Source: Flavobacteriales bacterium (GTDB taxonomy: Bacteria > Bacteroidota > Bacteroidia > Flavobacteriales_D > Crocinitomicaceae). Taken from it: 64,000 nucleotides of DNA. This document shows positions 51,719-57,629 of this stretch, in pieces. Within the stretch, counting starts at the first letter, position 1. The number at the start of each line of letters is the position of its first letter. The notes below the pieces were generated by a model. The model did no database searches and was not told where the DNA came from. It saw only the letters and a program-made list of their open reading frames with translations. Both the position numbers and the translations under genes were made by a program. The stretch is taken from positions 1-64,000 of the forward strand of contig CANFRV010000011.1 in the NCBI GenBank assembly GCA_947449575.1, given 5' to 3'.

Positions 51719-52975
51719 TCAATCATTTTGAATTTGAAATAAATGATCAAAGAATAAAGGATACGACTTATTAATCACATGAGAATCCTCAATTAAAACT
51801 GGTCCATTGGCGCGCAATGCAGCTATGGCACAAGCCATTGCAATTCTATGATCGCCATGAGAATTTACCGTCGCAGAAGTACTGCATTTTATACCTTTGA
51901 TTCTCATTTCATCTCCTTCAATACTAATTTTAGCTCCCATTTTTCCCAACTCCTGTTGAATGGCAATTGAACGATTACTTTCCTTGTTGATCAATCGATT
52001 CACTCCCTTGATTATACTTGTTCCTTCCGCAAAACAAGCTAGCACAGCGAGCGGTGGAAATAAATCAGGGCAATGATTTGCATCAAAACAAAAAGATCTA
52101 TTTTCATTTTTAGTAATCGATAATGAGGACTTCTTTTCGGAAATGATAGCTCCAAAATCTTTCAAAGCACTTAAAATATTCTTATCCGCTTGTTGAGAAG
52201 TACTATTTAAATTTTCAACCGCAATTGAACCTGAAATAGCAGCTGCAACCAATAAAAATGAAGCACTACTCCAATCTCCTTCTACTGCAATCTCCTTCGA
52301 ATTAAGCGTGTAAGGACCATCAAAGTATAGCGTATTGTTGTTGAAATTAATGTCCGCCCCAAATTGCTTTAACACTTCCAAAGTCAATAAAATATAAGGA
52401 ATACTCGTCGGATTTGAAATTTTAATTTGAACTTTTTTTGTGTATTCTGAAGCCACGAAAGCATAAATCAAACCCGTAATAAATTGTGAGCTCATTGATC
52501 CATCTATGATACAATTACTAGGGATAATTGGTCCTTTTAACGTAAAAGGTAAATGACCATTTTGTGATTTAAAATCAACGTTTAGTTCACGCAAAATCGA
52601 ATCGAAAAAATGCATAGGTCTAGAAAGTAGTGTGCCTTTTGCATCCATTCGGACCAATTCAGAATTAACAGATAAAAGTGGCGTAAACATTCTGGCTGAC
52701 AAACCAGACTCTCCGCAGTTTACCGACATCTCTTTATTACTTATCCCTTTGCTAGAAATTCGAATTTTAGTTTCAGATAAAAATTCAACCACAGCGCCCG
52801 CTTGCTGAATAATTTCTAAAGCAGCGTTTTCATCATCAGAAATACCAAAGTTTTCAACATCAGTAAATCCATGAACAAGGAGAGCGGCCGCATATGTTCT
52901 TTGGCCATAACTTTTTGAAGCAGGAATCTTTATCCTCCCTTTAACATCACTTGACGGATATACTATTTGATTCAT
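51719..52975 (-). CDS. aroA: 3-phosphoshikimate 1-carboxyvinyltransferase (EPSP synthase)
   Basis: The protein (418 residues from ATG 52975) catalyses the sixth step of the shikimate pathway and has the internal repeat of two inverse alpha/beta domains. Key motifs are IPASKSYGQR (about residue 17, with the conserved Lys), CGESGLSARMFTPL near residue 74, GDWSSASF near residue 222, ADKNIL near residue 256, and HGDHRIAMACAIAAL near residue 370. The start lies 29 bases inside aroB, so the pair is translationally coupled. The reading from 53026 lies entirely inside aroB. It is the last gene of the phenylalanine-controlled operon. Confidence 0.95.
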   Translation of the reverse strand: MNQIVYPSSDVKGRIKIPASKSYGQRTYAAALLVHGFTDVENFGISDDENAALEIIQQAGAVVEFLSETKIRISSKGISNKEMSVNCGESGLSARMFTPLLSVNSELVRMDAKGTLLSRPMHFFDSILRELNVDFKSQNGHLPFTLKGPIIPSNCIIDGSMSSQFITGLIYAFVASEYTKKVQIKISNPTSIPYILLTLEVLKQFGADINFNNNTLYFDGPYTLNSKEIAVEGDWSSASFLLVAAAISGSIAVENLNSTSQQADKNILSALKDFGAIISEKKSSLSITKNENRSFCFDANHCPDLFPPLAVLACFAEGTSIIKGVNRLINKESNRSIAIQQELGKMGAKISIEGDEMRIKGIKCSTSATVNSHGDHRIAMACAIAALRANGPVLIEDSHVINKSYPLFFDHLFQIQND

Positions 52976-54002
52976 TGAATATTTTTTTAAGATCCTGTTT
53001 AATTTCATCAAAAGACAATTTGACAATCTCAGATTCCCCTAATTTTTTTAGTAAAATAAAATCTATTTCTTCTCCATTCTTCTTTTTATCATTGCTGATG
53101 AGCGATAAAACGGAAGAACTTTTTATCTGTGCAGAAATAGGTAATTCATATTTTTCAAGAAGACTTGCAATTCTGTTAGAATCTATCTTTGAGAACCCTC
53201 TTTTAGAAACGGATAATTGAGAAGCATAAATCATACCTATACTGACTGCAAAACCGTGTTTCAAATCCAAATTCTTTTCTATTGCGTGACCAATGGTATG
53301 TCCAAAATTTAATGTTTTTCGCAGTGCTAAATCATTGGGGTCTTTGCGAATGATAGCAGATTTTATGAGTAAACATTTTTGAATCAACATTTGCAAGGCA
53401 ATAGGAGAATTAATAAAATATTGAAGGTTGTTTGCATCCAAATAATTAAATAACTCCACATCACAAATACAACCATATTTAATAATTTCAGCAAACCCAT
53501 TTGCAAATTCAACGTGCGGCAAAGATTTAAAAAAAAGATAATCGTATAAAATAATATCTGGCTGATTAATCGTCCCGATACAGTTTTTAATTAAACCTTG
53601 ATTCACTCCATTTTTGCCACCAATCGCAGCATCAACAGCACATAAAACCGTTGTAGGTATAAAACCAAAGGGGATTCCTCGCTTATAAATAGAAGCAACA
53701 AAACCAACTAAATCAGTAATTACTCCACCACCAACACCAATTAATAAGCTATTCTTATCCACACCAATAGCCAAAAGTTGGTTGATAATTAACTGTGATT
53801 GTTCAAGTGTTTTCGTGTTTTCTCCCCCTTCAACCACAATTACAGATTCTAAACCAGCAAATACACTCGTATGGTGTCGATACACATTGTGATCTACAAT
53901 AAGGACTAATTTATTATAATTCTTAGCAATTTTACCAATATTTTTAAAGTTAAAATTGAAAACAACTTTGGTCTGTTTATCGGTTTTGACTTTGAATATC
54001 AT
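52947..54002 (-). CDS. aroB: 3-dehydroquinate synthase
   Basis: The 351-residue NAD- and metal-dependent enzyme makes 3-dehydroquinate from DAHP. It has the dinucleotide site VVEGGENTKTLEQ near residue 57, LIGVGGGVITDLVGFVAS near residue 81, FIPTTVLCAVDAAIGGKNGVN near residue 113, the zinc ligands in EIIKYG near residue 171 and RKTLNFGHTIGHAIE near residue 227. It overlaps the DAHP synthase stop by four bases and the aroA start by 29. Confidence 0.96.
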   Translation of the reverse strand: MIFKVKTDKQTKVVFNFNFKNIGKIAKNYNKLVLIVDHNVYRHHTSVFAGLESVIVVEGGENTKTLEQSQLIINQLLAIGVDKNSLLIGVGGGVITDLVGFVASIYKRGIPFGFIPTTVLCAVDAAIGGKNGVNQGLIKNCIGTINQPDIILYDYLFFKSLPHVEFANGFAEIIKYGCICDVELFNYLDANNLQYFINSPIALQMLIQKCLLIKSAIIRKDPNDLALRKTLNFGHTIGHAIEKNLDLKHGFAVSIGMIYASQLSVSKRGFSKIDSNRIASLLEKYELPISAQIKSSSVLSLISNDKKKNGEEIDFILLKKLGESEIVKLSFDEIKQDLKKIFNESNSISVK

Positions 54003-55093
54003 CCTTTCTGAGCATGAAGTGAATCTTGAATTCTAATACTTTCGATGTGAACAGCTTCCATGTAAGATTGAATGAATGATTTTCCTAAATCAAGTGATTC
54101 TGCCTTTTTAATAGTACGATCTAAAATCTCATTCCATCGAGAAGATTGTAAAACTGTAACATCGTTTTGAAGTTTGATTTCTCCAATTTTTCTAGCCACT
54201 TTCATTCTATTGGAAATTAACGCAAGTAGTTCATCATCAAAACAGTCAATTTGTGTACGTAAATGATTCAATTCATCAACAAAATCCTTCTTACCAGTAG
54301 AAATGGTTTTCAATACCATTGAATCTAGTAATTCGACCAATTGCTGCGGTGTCACTTGCTGTTCTTTATCAGTCAAAGCAATCGTTGGGTCACAATGAGA
54401 TTCAATAATTAATCCACTGTAAGCTAAATCAATACTCTTTTGTGAAACTTCTAAAAGTGTTTCTTTCTTCCCGCAAATATGGGATGGGTCGCAAATCATT
54501 GGTAAATCAGGGAATAAACGCTTCATTTCGATAGGGATCTGCCATAATGGTGCATTTCTGTATTCAGAATTTCCATAGGATGAGAATCCTCGATGTATTA
54601 ATCCAATATTTTCTATTCCTACTTTTTGAAGTCTTTCGATTGCTCCAATCCATAATTTGATATCTGGATTGATAGGATTCTTAATCAAAACCGTTGTATT
54701 TGTTCCCTTTAAAGCATCAGCGATGTTTTGTATACTGAATGGATTTACCGTTGTTCTAGCACCAATCCATAAAACATCTGTGTCGAAACTTAACGCATCC
54801 TCTACATGTTTGCTGGTAGCCACTTCAACTGCTGTTGGTAAACCTGTTACTTTTTTTGCTTGCAAAAGCCATGACAATGCCTTACTTCCTGCACCTTCGA
54901 AACCTCCCGGATTCGTGCGCGGTTTCCATACACCTGCACGTAAAATATCTACTTTACCTGTTGCCTTTAATTCTAATGCTGTACGAATAACTTGTTCTTC
55001 ATTTTCTGCGCTGCAGGGACCTGAAATAACTAAATTTTGTTTTTTTATTAAATCGACCATTTCTATATTTTTAAGATCTATTCCTGTTTTCAT
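53999..55093 (-). CDS. Bifunctional DAHP synthase (type I beta) and chorismate mutase (AroQ)
   Basis: The 364-residue protein is a fusion. Residues about 1-265 are a 3-deoxy-7-phosphoheptulonate synthase of the type I beta class: VISGPCSAENEEQ near residue 22, GVWKPRTNPGGFEG near residue 53, CDPSHICG near residue 202 and a late ESHCDPTIALTDKEQQVTP. Residues about 270-360 are an all-helical AroQ chorismate mutase (LRTQIDCFDDELLALISNRMKVARKIGEIK). The mutase C-terminal to the synthase is a known Bacteroidota arrangement thought to give feedback by prephenate. The stop overlaps aroB by four bases, and the gene starts 10 bases after pheA. Confidence 0.94.
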   Translation of the reverse strand: MKTGIDLKNIEMVDLIKKQNLVISGPCSAENEEQVIRTALELKATGKVDILRAGVWKPRTNPGGFEGAGSKALSWLLQAKKVTGLPTAVEVATSKHVEDALSFDTDVLWIGARTTVNPFSIQNIADALKGTNTTVLIKNPINPDIKLWIGAIERLQKVGIENIGLIHRGFSSYGNSEYRNAPLWQIPIEMKRLFPDLPMICDPSHICGKKETLLEVSQKSIDLAYSGLIIESHCDPTIALTDKEQQVTPQQLVELLDSMVLKTISTGKKDFVDELNHLRTQIDCFDDELLALISNRMKVARKIGEIKLQNDVTVLQSSRWNEILDRTIKKAESLDLGKSFIQSYMEAVHIESIRIQDSLHAQKG

Positions 55094-55103
55094 AATTTCT
55101 ATC

Positions 55104-55934
55104 TTAAATCGCTAACCCTTCTCCTTTATATACACCTAGAATTTTTATTGATTCTACAAAAGGTGATAATTTATTGATTGCTGTATCGAATACCTTCTTA
55201 TCATCAAACTCAATATCTAAATGAAAAGCATACGAAGAAGGAGTTTTTGGAATGGGAACACTCTGAATTTTAGTTAAATTCAAATTCGCTTCTTTCAAAA
55301 CAACCAAAATATCACTCAACCCTCCCACATGATTATGTGTTTTGAGCGTTATGGATCCTTTGTTTGGATTGGGGTCAAAGTCAGCTCCTTTACTTAAAAT
55401 ATAGAAGCGTGTAAAATTGGGATTTTCATCCCCCACGTTATCAACGACAACGTCCAATCCATATGTTTTTCCTACTGTTGGCCCTGCAATTACCGCTAAC
55501 TTGTTTTCTGTGTCCGCAGCAACTAATTTTGCAGAAGTAGCAGTGTCTTTGAATTCTGACACAACCACATTTTCTAATCCCGAAAGAAATAATTGACATT
55601 GACCAAGAGCCATTGGATGTGAAATGATTTCACGAATATCACTTAGCTTCGTTCCTGGTTTAGCTAATAATTGCAACTCAATAGGCAAATACGTTTCACC
55701 AATAATATTTAGATTATGCGTGTCTATCAATTGATAATTAAGTAAAATACTTCCTGCAACTTTATTTTCGATTGCGATTATTCCGTAATCAACCTTATTG
55801 TTAGCCAACTTATCACATACCTCTTTGAAAGATCCACATTCTAAAACGGTTACATCTTCACCAAAGTACTTTTTAGCAGCCAAATCGTGAAAAGAGGATA
55901 CTGATCCTTGTATTGCAATTACGTGATTTCTCAT
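55104..55934 (-). CDS. pheA: Prephenate dehydratase
   Basis: The 276-residue enzyme converts prephenate to phenylpyruvate. The catalytic domain (about residues 1-180) begins IAIQGSVSSFHDLAAKKYFG and has NKVDYGIIAIENKVAGSILLN and the catalytic NFTRFYIL (Thr of the TRF motif). A C-terminal ACT domain (about 195-272) has HNHVGGLSDILVVL. The usual Phe-binding ESRP signature is replaced by KIQSVPIPK, as seen in Bacteroidota. It is the first gene after the phenylalanine attenuator and heads the operon to aroA. The chorismate mutase it needs is fused to the next gene's product. Confidence 0.96.
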   Translation of the reverse strand: MRNHVIAIQGSVSSFHDLAAKKYFGEDVTVLECGSFKEVCDKLANNKVDYGIIAIENKVAGSILLNYQLIDTHNLNIIGETYLPIELQLLAKPGTKLSDIREIISHPMALGQCQLFLSGLENVVVSEFKDTATSAKLVAADTENKLAVIAGPTVGKTYGLDVVVDNVGDENPNFTRFYILSKGADFDPNPNKGSITLKTHNHVGGLSDILVVLKEANLNLTKIQSVPIPKTPSSYAFHLDIEFDDKKVFDTAINKLSPFVESIKILGVYKGEGLAI

Positions 55935-55974: not shown

Positions 55975-56001
55975 TAAAAAAAGCCTTCCTACATGGAAAG
56001 C
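55975..56001 (-). terminator. Attenuator terminator of the phe leader
   Basis: On the minus strand AGCTTTCC pairs with GGAAGGCT (one G-U pair) around a four-to-five base loop and is followed by a run of seven T. It lies 41 bases before the pheA start. The sequence is nearly identical to the two terminators upstream of asnA. Confidence 0.92.
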
Positions 56002-56002
56002 T

Positions 56003-56033
56003 TTTTTATATGTGTATATAACAAATCTCTCCC
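56003..56033 (-). promoter_or_regulatory. Antiterminator element GGGAGAGA of the phe leader
   Basis: GGGAGAGA (56026-56033, minus strand) overlaps the last base of the leader stop codon. GGAGAG can pair with the CTTTCC of the 5' arm of the terminator (one G-U pair), giving an alternative fold that prevents termination. A ribosome at the stop codon would cover this element and let the terminator form. The same element occurs in both asn leaders. Confidence 0.8.
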
Positions 56034-56083
56034 TAGTCCCTCCAGTGAAAATCGTAAAAAAAGAAGTTGTTCATTTTTTTCAT
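56033..56083 (-). CDS. Phenylalanine operon leader peptide (MKKMNNFFFYDFHWRD)
   Basis: A 16-codon open reading frame that starts with ATG at 56083 and ends with TAG at 56033-56035. Four of its 16 codons are phenylalanine (three in a row) with one tyrosine and one tryptophan. It is followed within zero bases by the antiterminator element and then by the terminator. This is the classical form of a leader peptide that stalls the ribosome when charged tRNA-Phe is scarce. An ATG three codons in is an alternative start. A -7 promoter box lies 32 bases before the ATG. Confidence 0.9.
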   Translation of the reverse strand: MKKMNNFFFYDFHWRD

Positions 56084-56114
56084 CGAAATATTATTTATTT
56101 TTTAATTTGTGGAA

Positions 56115-56122
56115 CAAAGATA
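56115..56122 (-). promoter_or_regulatory. -7 promoter box of the phe leader and operon
   Basis: The minus strand reads TATCTTTG. The predicted start site is near 56110, leaving a leader of about 27 bases before the leader-peptide ATG. The region 56123-56274 behind it holds no gene. Confidence 0.7.
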
Positions 56123-56274
56123 GGTCAATTACTTCACTCCTATCCTGTTTTTACTTTACATAAGATCCTTTTATTTAAAATATTACATCCATTTAAAACC
56201 TTTCAACTGTTTGTTTTTCAGTTTATTGAAAATAATTAATCCATATTATCAATAGGACAAAATAATGATTTTAC

Positions 56275-57303
56275 TTATAATAATTTTATATTTTCTCTAC
56301 TCAATTTTTCTAAAACAGCTTCAGACCAGATACTACTTTGCACTTCACCAATGTGTCTTTTTTGTAAAATAAACATAGCTAGACGTGATTGGCCAATACC
56401 GCCTCCAATTGTGTAGGGAAGTTTTTCATCTATCAATTGTTTGTGCCAATCCATTTCTAATCGTTGTTCTTGATTTCTCAAAGCCAATTGTTTCTTTAAA
56501 GATTCAGGACTAACACGAATACCCATCGATGATAGTTCGTATGATTTCCCTAGAATCTCATTCCATACCAAAATATCGCCATTTAATCCTTTTTTTCCAT
56601 CCACCGATTCTGTTGTCCAATCATCATAATCGGGTGCTCTTCCATCGTGAGGTTTACCATCTGCTAAATCACCACCAATACCTATTAAGAAAACGGCTCC
56701 AAATTCTTGGCAAATTTTATCTTCACGCTCTTTCCCTGTCAAAGTAGGATATTTAACGAGCAAATCTTCTGTATGAATAAAAGTAATTTTTTGAGGAAGC
56801 GGTAATTCACCTAACTCATATTTTTCTACAATCGATTGACTAGTTTCCAAAATAACTTTGTAAATTTCCTCCACTGTACTTTTTAAATAGGAAAGAGTTC
56901 TATCTGATTTATCAATAACTTTTTCCCAATCCCATTGATCTACAAAAATGCTATGTATTGGTGAAAAATCTTCATCTGGACGCAAAGCTTTCATGTCTGT
57001 GCAAATTCCCAATCCTTCTGGCGCCTTCAATCTTGCTAATTTAGCACGTTTCCATTTAGCTAAAGAATGAACAATTTCCACAGTAACATTGGGCATTTCC
57101 TTTATATTAACAGTAACTGGACTTTCAATACCGTTCAAATCATCATTGATTCCAGTACCTTTTACCACTAAAAGAGGAGCCTCTACTTTTATAAGGTTTA
57201 ATGTTGCTCCTAACGCAGATGAAAATTTTAGTTTCAATTCTGAAATTGCTTTTTCTGTCGTTAACTCTGTTAAGACCAATTGACTAGTTTTAATTGTTTC
57301 CAT
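56275..57303 (-). CDS. asnA: Aspartate--ammonia ligase (asparagine synthetase A)
   Basis: The 342-residue enzyme makes asparagine from aspartate, ammonia and ATP and is built on the class II aminoacyl-tRNA synthetase fold. Its conserved blocks include VVKGTGINDDLNG near residue 47, EIVHSLAKWKR near residue 76, DQWDWEKVIDKSDR near residue 122, RAPDYDDWTTE near residue 221, GDILVWNEILGKSYELSSMGIRVS near residue 240 and YTIGGGIGQSRLAMFILQKRHIGEVQSS near the C-terminus (class II motif 3 with catalytic Arg). Its mRNA leader contains two consecutive attenuators with asparagine codons. Confidence 0.97.
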   Translation of the reverse strand: METIKTSQLVLTELTTEKAISELKLKFSSALGATLNLIKVEAPLLVVKGTGINDDLNGIESPVTVNIKEMPNVTVEIVHSLAKWKRAKLARLKAPEGLGICTDMKALRPDEDFSPIHSIFVDQWDWEKVIDKSDRTLSYLKSTVEEIYKVILETSQSIVEKYELGELPLPQKITFIHTEDLLVKYPTLTGKEREDKICQEFGAVFLIGIGGDLADGKPHDGRAPDYDDWTTESVDGKKGLNGDILVWNEILGKSYELSSMGIRVSPESLKKQLALRNQEQRLEMDWHKQLIDEKLPYTIGGGIGQSRLAMFILQKRHIGEVQSSIWSEAVLEKLSRENIKLL

Positions 57304-57326
57304 TTTTTATTATTGATTTTAAGTAT

Positions 57327-57353
57327 AAAAAAAGCTTTCCTAATTGGAAAGCC
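57327..57353 (-). terminator. Second (proximal) asn attenuator terminator
   Basis: On the minus strand GGCTTTCC pairs with GGAAAGCT around a five-base loop (AATTA) and is followed by seven T. It ends about 24 bases before the asnA ATG, downstream of the second leader peptide. Confidence 0.92.
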
Positions 57354-57373
57354 TATTATTTGATTATAATATT

Positions 57374-57381
57374 TCTCTCCC
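57374..57381 (-). promoter_or_regulatory. Antiterminator element GGGAGAGA of the second asn leader
   Basis: GGGAGAGA on the minus strand begins three bases after the second leader stop codon (TGA at 57385-57387). GGAGAG can pair with CTTTCC of the terminator's 5' arm (57346-57351), with one G-U pair. It corresponds to the element in the phe leader. Confidence 0.8.
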
Positions 57382-57384
57382 TTT

Positions 57385-57423
57385 TCACTTAAATTGATTA
57401 TTACCATTCTTTTGAGCTTTCAT
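57385..57423 (-). CDS. Second asparagine leader peptide (MKAQKNGNNQFK)
   Basis: A 12-codon open reading frame from ATG 57423 to TGA 57385-57387. Three of the codons are asparagine, in NGNN. An in-frame ATG at 57471 would extend it by 16 codons (MSAKKINKTVLK...). No TAnnTTTG box lies between the first terminator and this frame, so it seems to be transcribed only when the first attenuator is read through. Its stop is followed by GGGAGAGA and the second terminator. Confidence 0.85.
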   Translation of the reverse strand: MKAQKNGNNQFK

Positions 57424-57487
57424 GAATCTCTCACATTTCAAAACTGTTTTATTTATTTTTTTTGCGCTCATCTTATTTTGTTTATTC

Positions 57488-57516
57488 AAAAAAAAAGCTT
57501 TCCTAGTTGGAAAGCT
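57488..57516 (-). terminator. First (distal) asn attenuator terminator
   Basis: On the minus strand AGCTTTCC (plus 57509-57516) pairs perfectly with GGAAAGCT (57496-57503) around a five-base loop, followed by a run of nine T. It lies downstream of the first asn leader peptide and about 190 bases before asnA. Confidence 0.93.
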
Positions 57517-57542
57517 CTCGTATTTATCATTATGACATAGTT

Positions 57543-57549
57543 CTTTCCC
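57543..57549 (-). promoter_or_regulatory. Antiterminator element GGGAAAG of the first asn leader
   Basis: GGGAAAG begins two bases after the leader TGA. GGAAAG is perfectly complementary to CTTTCC in the terminator's 5' arm (57509-57514). The adjacent AAAGAA is also complementary to the TTCTTT of the Phe codons inside the leader, which could give the classical 1:2 pairing. Confidence 0.8.
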
Positions 57550-57550
57550 T

Positions 57551-57601
57551 TCACCTAAAGCGATTATGATTAAAGAAAAAATTATAATTTGTAGTTTTCA
57601 T
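57551..57601 (-). CDS. First asparagine leader peptide (MKTTNYNFFFNHNRFR)
   Basis: A 16-codon open reading frame from ATG 57601 to TGA 57551-57553. It contains four asparagine codons (AAT, in NYN and NHN) around three phenylalanine codons. An in-frame ATG at 57619 would add MKNRNA, with two more asparagines, but lies at the predicted transcription start. The NFFF core and length match the phe leader, which suggests common origin. It is followed by GGGAAAG and a strong terminator. Confidence 0.88.
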   Translation of the reverse strand: MKTTNYNFFFNHNRFR

Positions 57602-57621
57602 TGCGTTTCTATTTTTCATGT

Positions 57622-57629
57622 CAAAGGTA
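57622..57629 (-). promoter_or_regulatory. -7 promoter box of the asn leader and asnA
   Basis: The minus strand reads TACCTTTG, matching TAnnTTTG. The start site would be near 57617, about 16 bases before the leader ATG at 57601. No second -7 box is seen before the second leader. The bases 57630-57801 behind it hold no gene. Confidence 0.7.

Follow-up and report, generated by a model that had tools for sequence, protein, structure and literature searches.

A 64,000-nucleotide stretch of a Flavobacteriales bacterium (Crocinitomicaceae; GenBank assembly GCA_947449575.1, contig CANFRV010000011.1, positions 1 to 64,000 of the forward strand; hereafter the window) carries on its minus strand three short leaders that are read as classical ribosome-mediated transcription attenuators: two Asn-codon leaders in series (Asn1 and Asn2) for asnA, and one Phe-codon leader (Phe) for pheA, the DAHP synthase/chorismate mutase gene, aroB and aroA. 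Their likeness is ascribed mainly to a shared, constrained design and to inheritance of each leader together with its gene; a probability of about 0.83 is given to this reading as a whole. Anatomy, occurrence through the phylum, alternative pairing and its co-variation were established computationally. The own genome is denoted G000, other G numbers are related genomes, and L numbers are loci.

Anatomy of the leaders: Each comprises an open reading frame (ORF) of 12–16 codons (Asn1, 22 amino acids if started at the earlier in-frame ATG, 57619-57617) and the purine stretch GGGARAGA at or directly past the stop codon; 27–31 bases separate the stop codon from a hairpin with the left-arm core CTTTCC, common to all three, a right arm (GGAAAG in both Asn leaders, GGAAGG in Phe) and a T-run after it. 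The post-stop stretch is GGGAAAGA in Asn1 and GGGAGAGA, identical, in Asn2 and Phe. The strict pattern GGGARAG-N12-42-CTTTCC-N3-9-GGAA gave three matches in the window and none in 100 shuffles; in the whole 3.5 Mb genome the same three were returned and no others. A pattern-like match elsewhere in the own genome (L004) was rejected, since it sits within an ABC-transporter gene. An earlier note on this DNA had claimed three attenuators of one design at this place, with the peptide length and purine stretch given above and with the asn modules directly upstream and the phe module directly downstream of asnA, and anatomy, pattern and gene order bear this out; the common stop codon that it also claimed does not exist, the stops being TAG (Phe), TGA (Asn1) and TGA (Asn2).

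Occurrence in relatives: The leaders are assigned to Asn and Phe because such leaders are conserved upstream of the same genes elsewhere. With an Asn-rich leader defined as an ORF of at least four Asn and at least 20% Asn directly before a terminator, such leaders were present at 20 of the 27 asnA loci having an upstream terminator and at 6 of 114 terminators elsewhere (p = 1.5e-13); the asnA loci with Asn leaders span Bacteroidales, Cesiribacter, Rhinopithecimicrobium, an uncultured Flavobacterium and other genomes of the class. Phe-rich leaders were found upstream of pheA in G001, G006, G004, G011, G018, G041 (two, in tandem), G056, G058 and others. Codon enrichment of the short ORF is strong across loci, and in the window leaders an intrinsic terminator lies between the leader ORF and the first gene. 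Pyrimidine runs of at least five were counted in the left arm of 33/40 attenuators and of 14/53 other terminators (p = 8e-8).

Pairing and folding: For the proposed mechanism the leader may be divided into four segments, namely the regulatory codons (1), the purine stretch at or past the stop (2), the pyrimidine left arm of the terminator (3) and its right arm (4). Most leaders allow base pairing between the purine stretch and their own terminator's left arm. In a matrix of 40 leaders, segments 2 and 3 of one leader paired more stably than segments taken from different leaders (centred mean −1.87 kcal/mol, p = 5e-5); this preference is co-variation. Pairing of segments 1 and 2 was likewise stronger within than between leaders (p = 5e-5), as in L058, where AATAACTTC (Asn-Asn-Phe) pairs with GAAGTTATT; Phe after an Asn run can therefore be a structural residue. 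The automatic choice of segment 2 in this analysis was wrong for win_phe, win_asn2, G004_phe and G048, and these rows were excluded from statements on single leaders. When the RNA was folded to the end of the left arm, the antiterminator had a probability of 0.96–1.00 with the ribosome at any Phe codon (Phe leader) or any Asn codon (Asn1, Asn2) and of 0.00 with the ribosome at the stop codon; co-variation and this masking simulation agree on an antiterminator that excludes the terminator and depends on ribosome position. The untranslated leader tends to form the 1:2 pairing, hence to terminate, in Asn1 and in the Asn leader of G010; Asn2 shows the tendency weakly and the Phe leader not clearly.

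Proposed mechanism: When charged transfer RNA is scarce, the ribosome would stall at the Asn or Phe codons, leave segment 2 free for the 2:3 antiterminator, and transcription would go on. A ribosome at the stop codon would cover segment 2, the 3:4 terminator would form, and transcription would end in vivo; the genes would thus be off when asparagine or phenylalanine is plentiful. If there is no translation, segment 1 could pair with segment 2 in several leaders, which would also favour termination. Placed in series, the two Asn attenuators would be expected to act multiplicatively and to sharpen the response. The pheA to aroA genes are probably co-transcribed, judging from gene overlap and spacing.

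Several results weigh against this interpretation. Codon enrichment within each single window leader is weak (binomial p 0.0008–0.02). With the right arm included, the terminator was favoured over the antiterminator at equilibrium in every ribosome state, and the decision must therefore be kinetic (co-transcriptional), as in classical attenuation. The isolated antiterminator fold of Asn1 was no better than shuffles (z 0.0), and in Asn2 the 1:2 pairing is almost nil. The leader set was compiled by manual curation, and kindred leaders do not count as independent observations. In an approximately unbiased (AU) test a clade of window leaders only was not rejected (p 0.19), a result compatible with local copying or with an older ancestor common to Phe and Asn leaders; the best leader tree agrees with separate descent in setting Phe apart from Asn but is poorly supported (62/90).

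Table 1. Features of the asnA–pheA region; positions are those of the window.
Feature	Position	Strand	Basis
Putative Bacteroidota-type −7 promoter element TACCTTTG, before Asn leader 1	57622..57629	−	read from sequence
Asn leader 1 ORF MKTTNYNFFFNHNRFR, stop TGA	57551..57601	−	Asn leaders at equivalent place in relatives
Segment 2 of Asn1, GGGAAAG, predicted 5' strand of antiterminator	57543..57549	−	pattern; folding/pairing
Asn1 intrinsic terminator GAGAGCTTTCC/AACTA/GGAAAGCTTTT; T-run to 57488	57493..57519	−	computed
Asn leader 2 ORF MKAQKNGNNQFK, stop TGA	57385..57423	−	sequence; Asn leaders of relatives
Segment 2 of Asn2, GGGAGAG	57375..57381	−	pattern; antiterminator fold z −2.2
Asn2 intrinsic terminator AGGCTTTCC/AATTA/GGAAAGCTT; T-run to 57327	57332..57354	−	computed
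asnA, aspartate-ammonia ligase	56275..57303	−	Pfam AsnA 4e-95
Putative −7 promoter element TATCTTTG, before Phe leader	56115..56122	−	read from sequence
Phe leader ORF MKKMNNFFFYDFHWRD, stop TAG	56033..56083	−	orthologous Phe leaders in G001, G006, G004
Segment 2 of Phe, GGGAGAG, first G = last base of stop codon	56027..56033	−	pattern; antiterminator fold z −2.3
Phe intrinsic terminator AAAAGCTTTCC/ATGTA/GGAAGGCTTTT; T-run to 55976	55979..56005	−	computed
pheA (prephenate dehydratase), leading gene of the operon under proposed Phe control	55104..55934	−	Pfam
DAHP synthase/chorismate mutase, aroB, aroA, later operon genes	51719..55093	−	Pfam

Alternative explanations: Terminators of the AAGCCTTCC type are found after ordinary genes as well, and with the weak codon enrichment of the window alone the three elements could be taken for ordinary intergenic terminators next to chance short ORFs, with no regulation; this is very improbable, since the Asn-rich leaders before asnA far exceed those at control terminators (20/27 and 6/114), the alternative pairings co-vary, and leader codons match the downstream gene consistently throughout the phylum. 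The earlier note had proposed a different history, namely that an Asn (or Phe) module was copied between neighbouring loci in the window lineage and re-targeted by codon change. All three genomic occurrences of the exact CTTTCC-type module do lie within 1.7 kb, the strict pattern gave no match recognisable as an attenuator in 58 relatives, and the whole-module similarity of Phe and Asn1 (z 8–9) exceeds that of the control with the leader of the branched-chain (ilv) operon (z about 6). Synteny, however, argues otherwise: in the congeners G001 and G006 the order is recQ-[Phe leader]-pheA and their genomes yielded no asnA; in G005, G008 and G010 it is [Asn leader]-asnA-pheA, and a Phe leader is lacking. 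With the hairpin left out of the alignment, the best partners of the window Phe leader were the leaders before pheA in G004, G001 and G006 (z about 7–11), and those of Asn1 were the Asn leaders of G010, G008, G009 and G005 (z about 6–7.5), whereas window Phe–Asn similarity is z 3.3–4.7 (ilv control, z 2–4, and 2.2–2.7 for the Phe leader); the own-genome Phe and Asn copies thus do not show the excess of mutual similarity, over that with leaders of the corresponding genes in relatives, that a recent duplication would require. The hairpins, which the earlier note had called nearly identical, share the left core; the Phe right arm is GGAAGG, equal to the arm of the congeners and now pairing via a U-G wobble, where a copy of an Asn hairpin would carry GGAAAG, as in Asn1 and Asn2. 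Arms of this type turn up again at ilv loci and in further families, hence are not private to the asn and phe loci. Taken together, a recent local duplication of phe and asn modules with re-targeting is not supported by these comparisons and appears improbable.

A narrower duplication, in which Asn2 is a copy of Asn1 (or both are copies of a lost one) and Phe is independent, is compatible with attenuators of constrained, inherited design and has a little less than an even chance. Asn1 and Asn2 are alike in arm, loop (AACTA/AATTA), purine stretch and spacer (whole-module z 8.6–9.6), the congeners G005, G008, G009 and G010 have a single Asn leader, and members of most other tandem pairs (G068, G004, L050, L211, L188, L198) are unlike each other; the similarity of Asn1 and Asn2 outside the hairpin is nevertheless modest (z 5.2) and equal to that with the G008 and G009 Asn leaders, the pair has a tree support of 53/0, and the FFF block is absent from Asn2. 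Equally compatible with constrained design would be an older common origin, by which the Phe and Asn leaders of the family split from a mixed Asn+Phe leader of an asnA-pheA operon; this is possible, though held only tentatively. It is favoured by the frequent adjacency of asnA and pheA with N- and F-rich leaders, by the difference in Phe fraction (both given below) and by the Phe and Asn leaders of congeners, which resemble each other more than the ilv control. On the other hand, some Asn leaders with no following pheA also have FF (G004, L086, L199, L211), UUY codons can be retained for the 1:2 pairing, and most linked asnA-pheA genomes belong to one family, so that the counts are not independent. 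Of the duplication claimed in the earlier note there would remain, at most, a tandem Asn copy or an older shared ancestor.

Recurrence of the arm at ilv: The earlier note had held that this hairpin at all attenuators irrespective of locus would point to constraint and not to local duplication, and this was largely found: the pyrimidine arm recurs at asn, phe and ilv elsewhere, and the his and trp hairpins differ. The profile R1, derived from the leaders, is of sequence only (in a structural covariance model right arms with unequal loop length were misaligned); its matches beyond the training set were mostly ordinary terminators, plus ilv leaders. The latter were recovered in G002, G005, G006, G011 and, in another family, G054, and are homologous to that of the own genome; the G054 hairpin GGCCTTTCC/GGAAAGGC nearly equals that of Asn2, and the own-genome ilv arm is TCTTTCTC. 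On the preferred reading of constrained, inherited attenuators, three causes make the hairpins similar: segment 3 has to pair with a purine-rich segment 2, an arm of this type is widely used by the phe, asn and ilv attenuators of these bacteria, and every leader shares descent with its orthologues in related species. Attenuators at different loci can accordingly look copied, as the purine-pyrimidine pairing of the stop-codon segment with the terminator arm narrows the choice of sequence.

The own-genome branched-chain leader, MKNSFNIVIVILVIIIQLIN, is of the same design and lies upstream of the ilv operon (L136 3190-3320, G000:C30), which was read from the ORFs as ilvE-ilvD-ilvB-ilvN-ilvC-ilvA. 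The his and trp leaders of the same family likewise have a leader peptide with regulatory codons and a terminator; their hairpins (his, CCCGTTTGAG; trp, ACGGCTTGTC) are locus-specific and conserved across genera, whereas phe, asn and ilv have pyrimidine arms instead.

Joint asnA-pheA operon: Of the 24 genomes of the family that have asnA, 13 have pheA directly behind it, and the readable leaders of asnA-pheA genomes carry both Asn and Phe codons: MSNNFFFNNNNHIR (G010), MIINNNFFFFFNHFKF (G091), MQNAANNNFNFFISD (G199). In the distant genome G670, asnA and pheA are likewise neighbours in this order, 139 bases apart, and the leader is MKTNFNNNFYFNPKN; in G086, asnA is followed by a Phe leader and then pheA. 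The Phe fraction of the leader was 0.238 where pheA follows asnA and 0.073 where it does not (p = 1.3e-4, uncorrected for kinship). That one attenuator of this family senses the unrelated Asn and Phe for a joint asnA-pheA-DAHP synthase operon, and was split into separate attenuators in the window lineage, is suggested by these leaders and is, on balance, unlikely. If true, re-targeting of leaders would be real but old, and the related genomes would preserve mixed and split states. The mixed Asn+Phe, Phe-only and split leaders of related genomes form a natural series in which to study a change of attenuator amino acid.

Known systems: Leader-peptide attenuation is a textbook mechanism. The E. 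coli pheA/pheST attenuators (RF01859 Phe_leader) are alike in the Phe-rich peptide, the overlapping alternative hairpins, the intrinsic terminator and the control of a prephenate dehydratase gene; the window leaders differ in being shorter, in having one purine segment at the stop codon and in the use of the design with Asn codons too. Against RF01859 the leaders scored 29.9 bits (Phe) and 30.4 bits (Asn1), below the gathering score of 55; neither the window leaders nor 8 related loci gave an Rfam match at gathering level, T-box models included. For Flavobacterium psychrophilum, of the same phylum, transcriptome data gave strong clues for leader-peptide attenuation upstream of amino-acid operons (PMC9723704); asnA or an Asn leader is not named in the portions of that paper used here. 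The ilvBNC attenuator of C. glutamicum combines a short leader with hairpins of three kinds, terminator, antiterminator and anti-antiterminator (PMC11857589); this and the attenuators of Actinobacteria (PMC1262725) concern another phylum and other amino acids, and no Asn is named in the excerpts of these sources. Naville and Gautheret (2010) discussed the reuse of closely similar leaders at paralogous genes, described such His leaders in front of hisZ and hisS*, and also treated attenuators that 'hop' from one gene to another (PMC2965389); a change of amino-acid specificity between neighbouring loci is not described in the part of that article considered. No described Asn leader-peptide attenuator was found in open-licence full-text literature or in Rfam, an absence that is weak evidence; an asnA attenuator that senses Asn through the ribosome would have a specificity absent from the literature and Rfam families searched. 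The leaders make up a testable collection of candidate asparagine attenuators across the phylum, frequently in series, which is not represented in Rfam.

Gene neighbourhood and tandem leaders: On the minus strand the order is recQ, the two Asn-codon leaders in tandem, asnA, the Phe-codon leader, pheA, the DAHP synthase/chorismate mutase gene, aroB and aroA; products were assigned by Pfam (AsnA, prephenate dehydratase, DAHP synthase plus chorismate mutase, DHQ synthase, EPSP synthase). Tandem Asn leaders also stand upstream of asnA at L029, L035, L050, L188, L198 and L211, and are usually unlike each other. A Pro-Pro motif (NNNxSPP) often ends the second tandem leader (6/9 second leaders; 0/25 first or single ones), and its Pro codons may pair with the GG-rich segment 2 or pause the ribosome.

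Control by an Lrp/AsnC-type regulator is an alternative for asnA, as in E. coli. No Lrp/AsnC-type gene stands beside asnA in the window, where the neighbours are recQ and pheA; such a gene adjoins asnA in G014 and G392, and asnA loci lacking an Asn leader can have an adjacent one (L036 2609-3064; L193 2596-3051). The distribution of asnA is patchy (24/240 genomes in the family, 20/399 in the order, 23/395 in the class), which suggests repeated loss or horizontal transfer.

Minor observations: In the own genome no full trpE-type match was obtained, the weak PF04715 match at C13 being the only one; most congeners have trpE with a Trp leader, and Trp auxotrophy or an assembly gap is possible. At L141, L143 and L148 the sequence TTTACTCAAAC, between the his terminator and hisG, is complementary to GTTTGAGTAA of the terminator, possibly a second regulatory pairing at his. 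The putative promoter elements of Table 1 may be set beside the Bacteroidota −7 consensus, TAnnTTTG. A TTTG, TATG or TGTG site lies about 10–11 nucleotides past the GG of segment 2 in the leaders (e.g., window 56033-56022); by eye it resembles the elemental pause consensus of RNA polymerase (G-10 Y-1 G+1), with GGTTATTATGTG in L040 and L051, and these conserved, pause-like TTTG/TATG sites coincide with the region of 1:2 pairing too.

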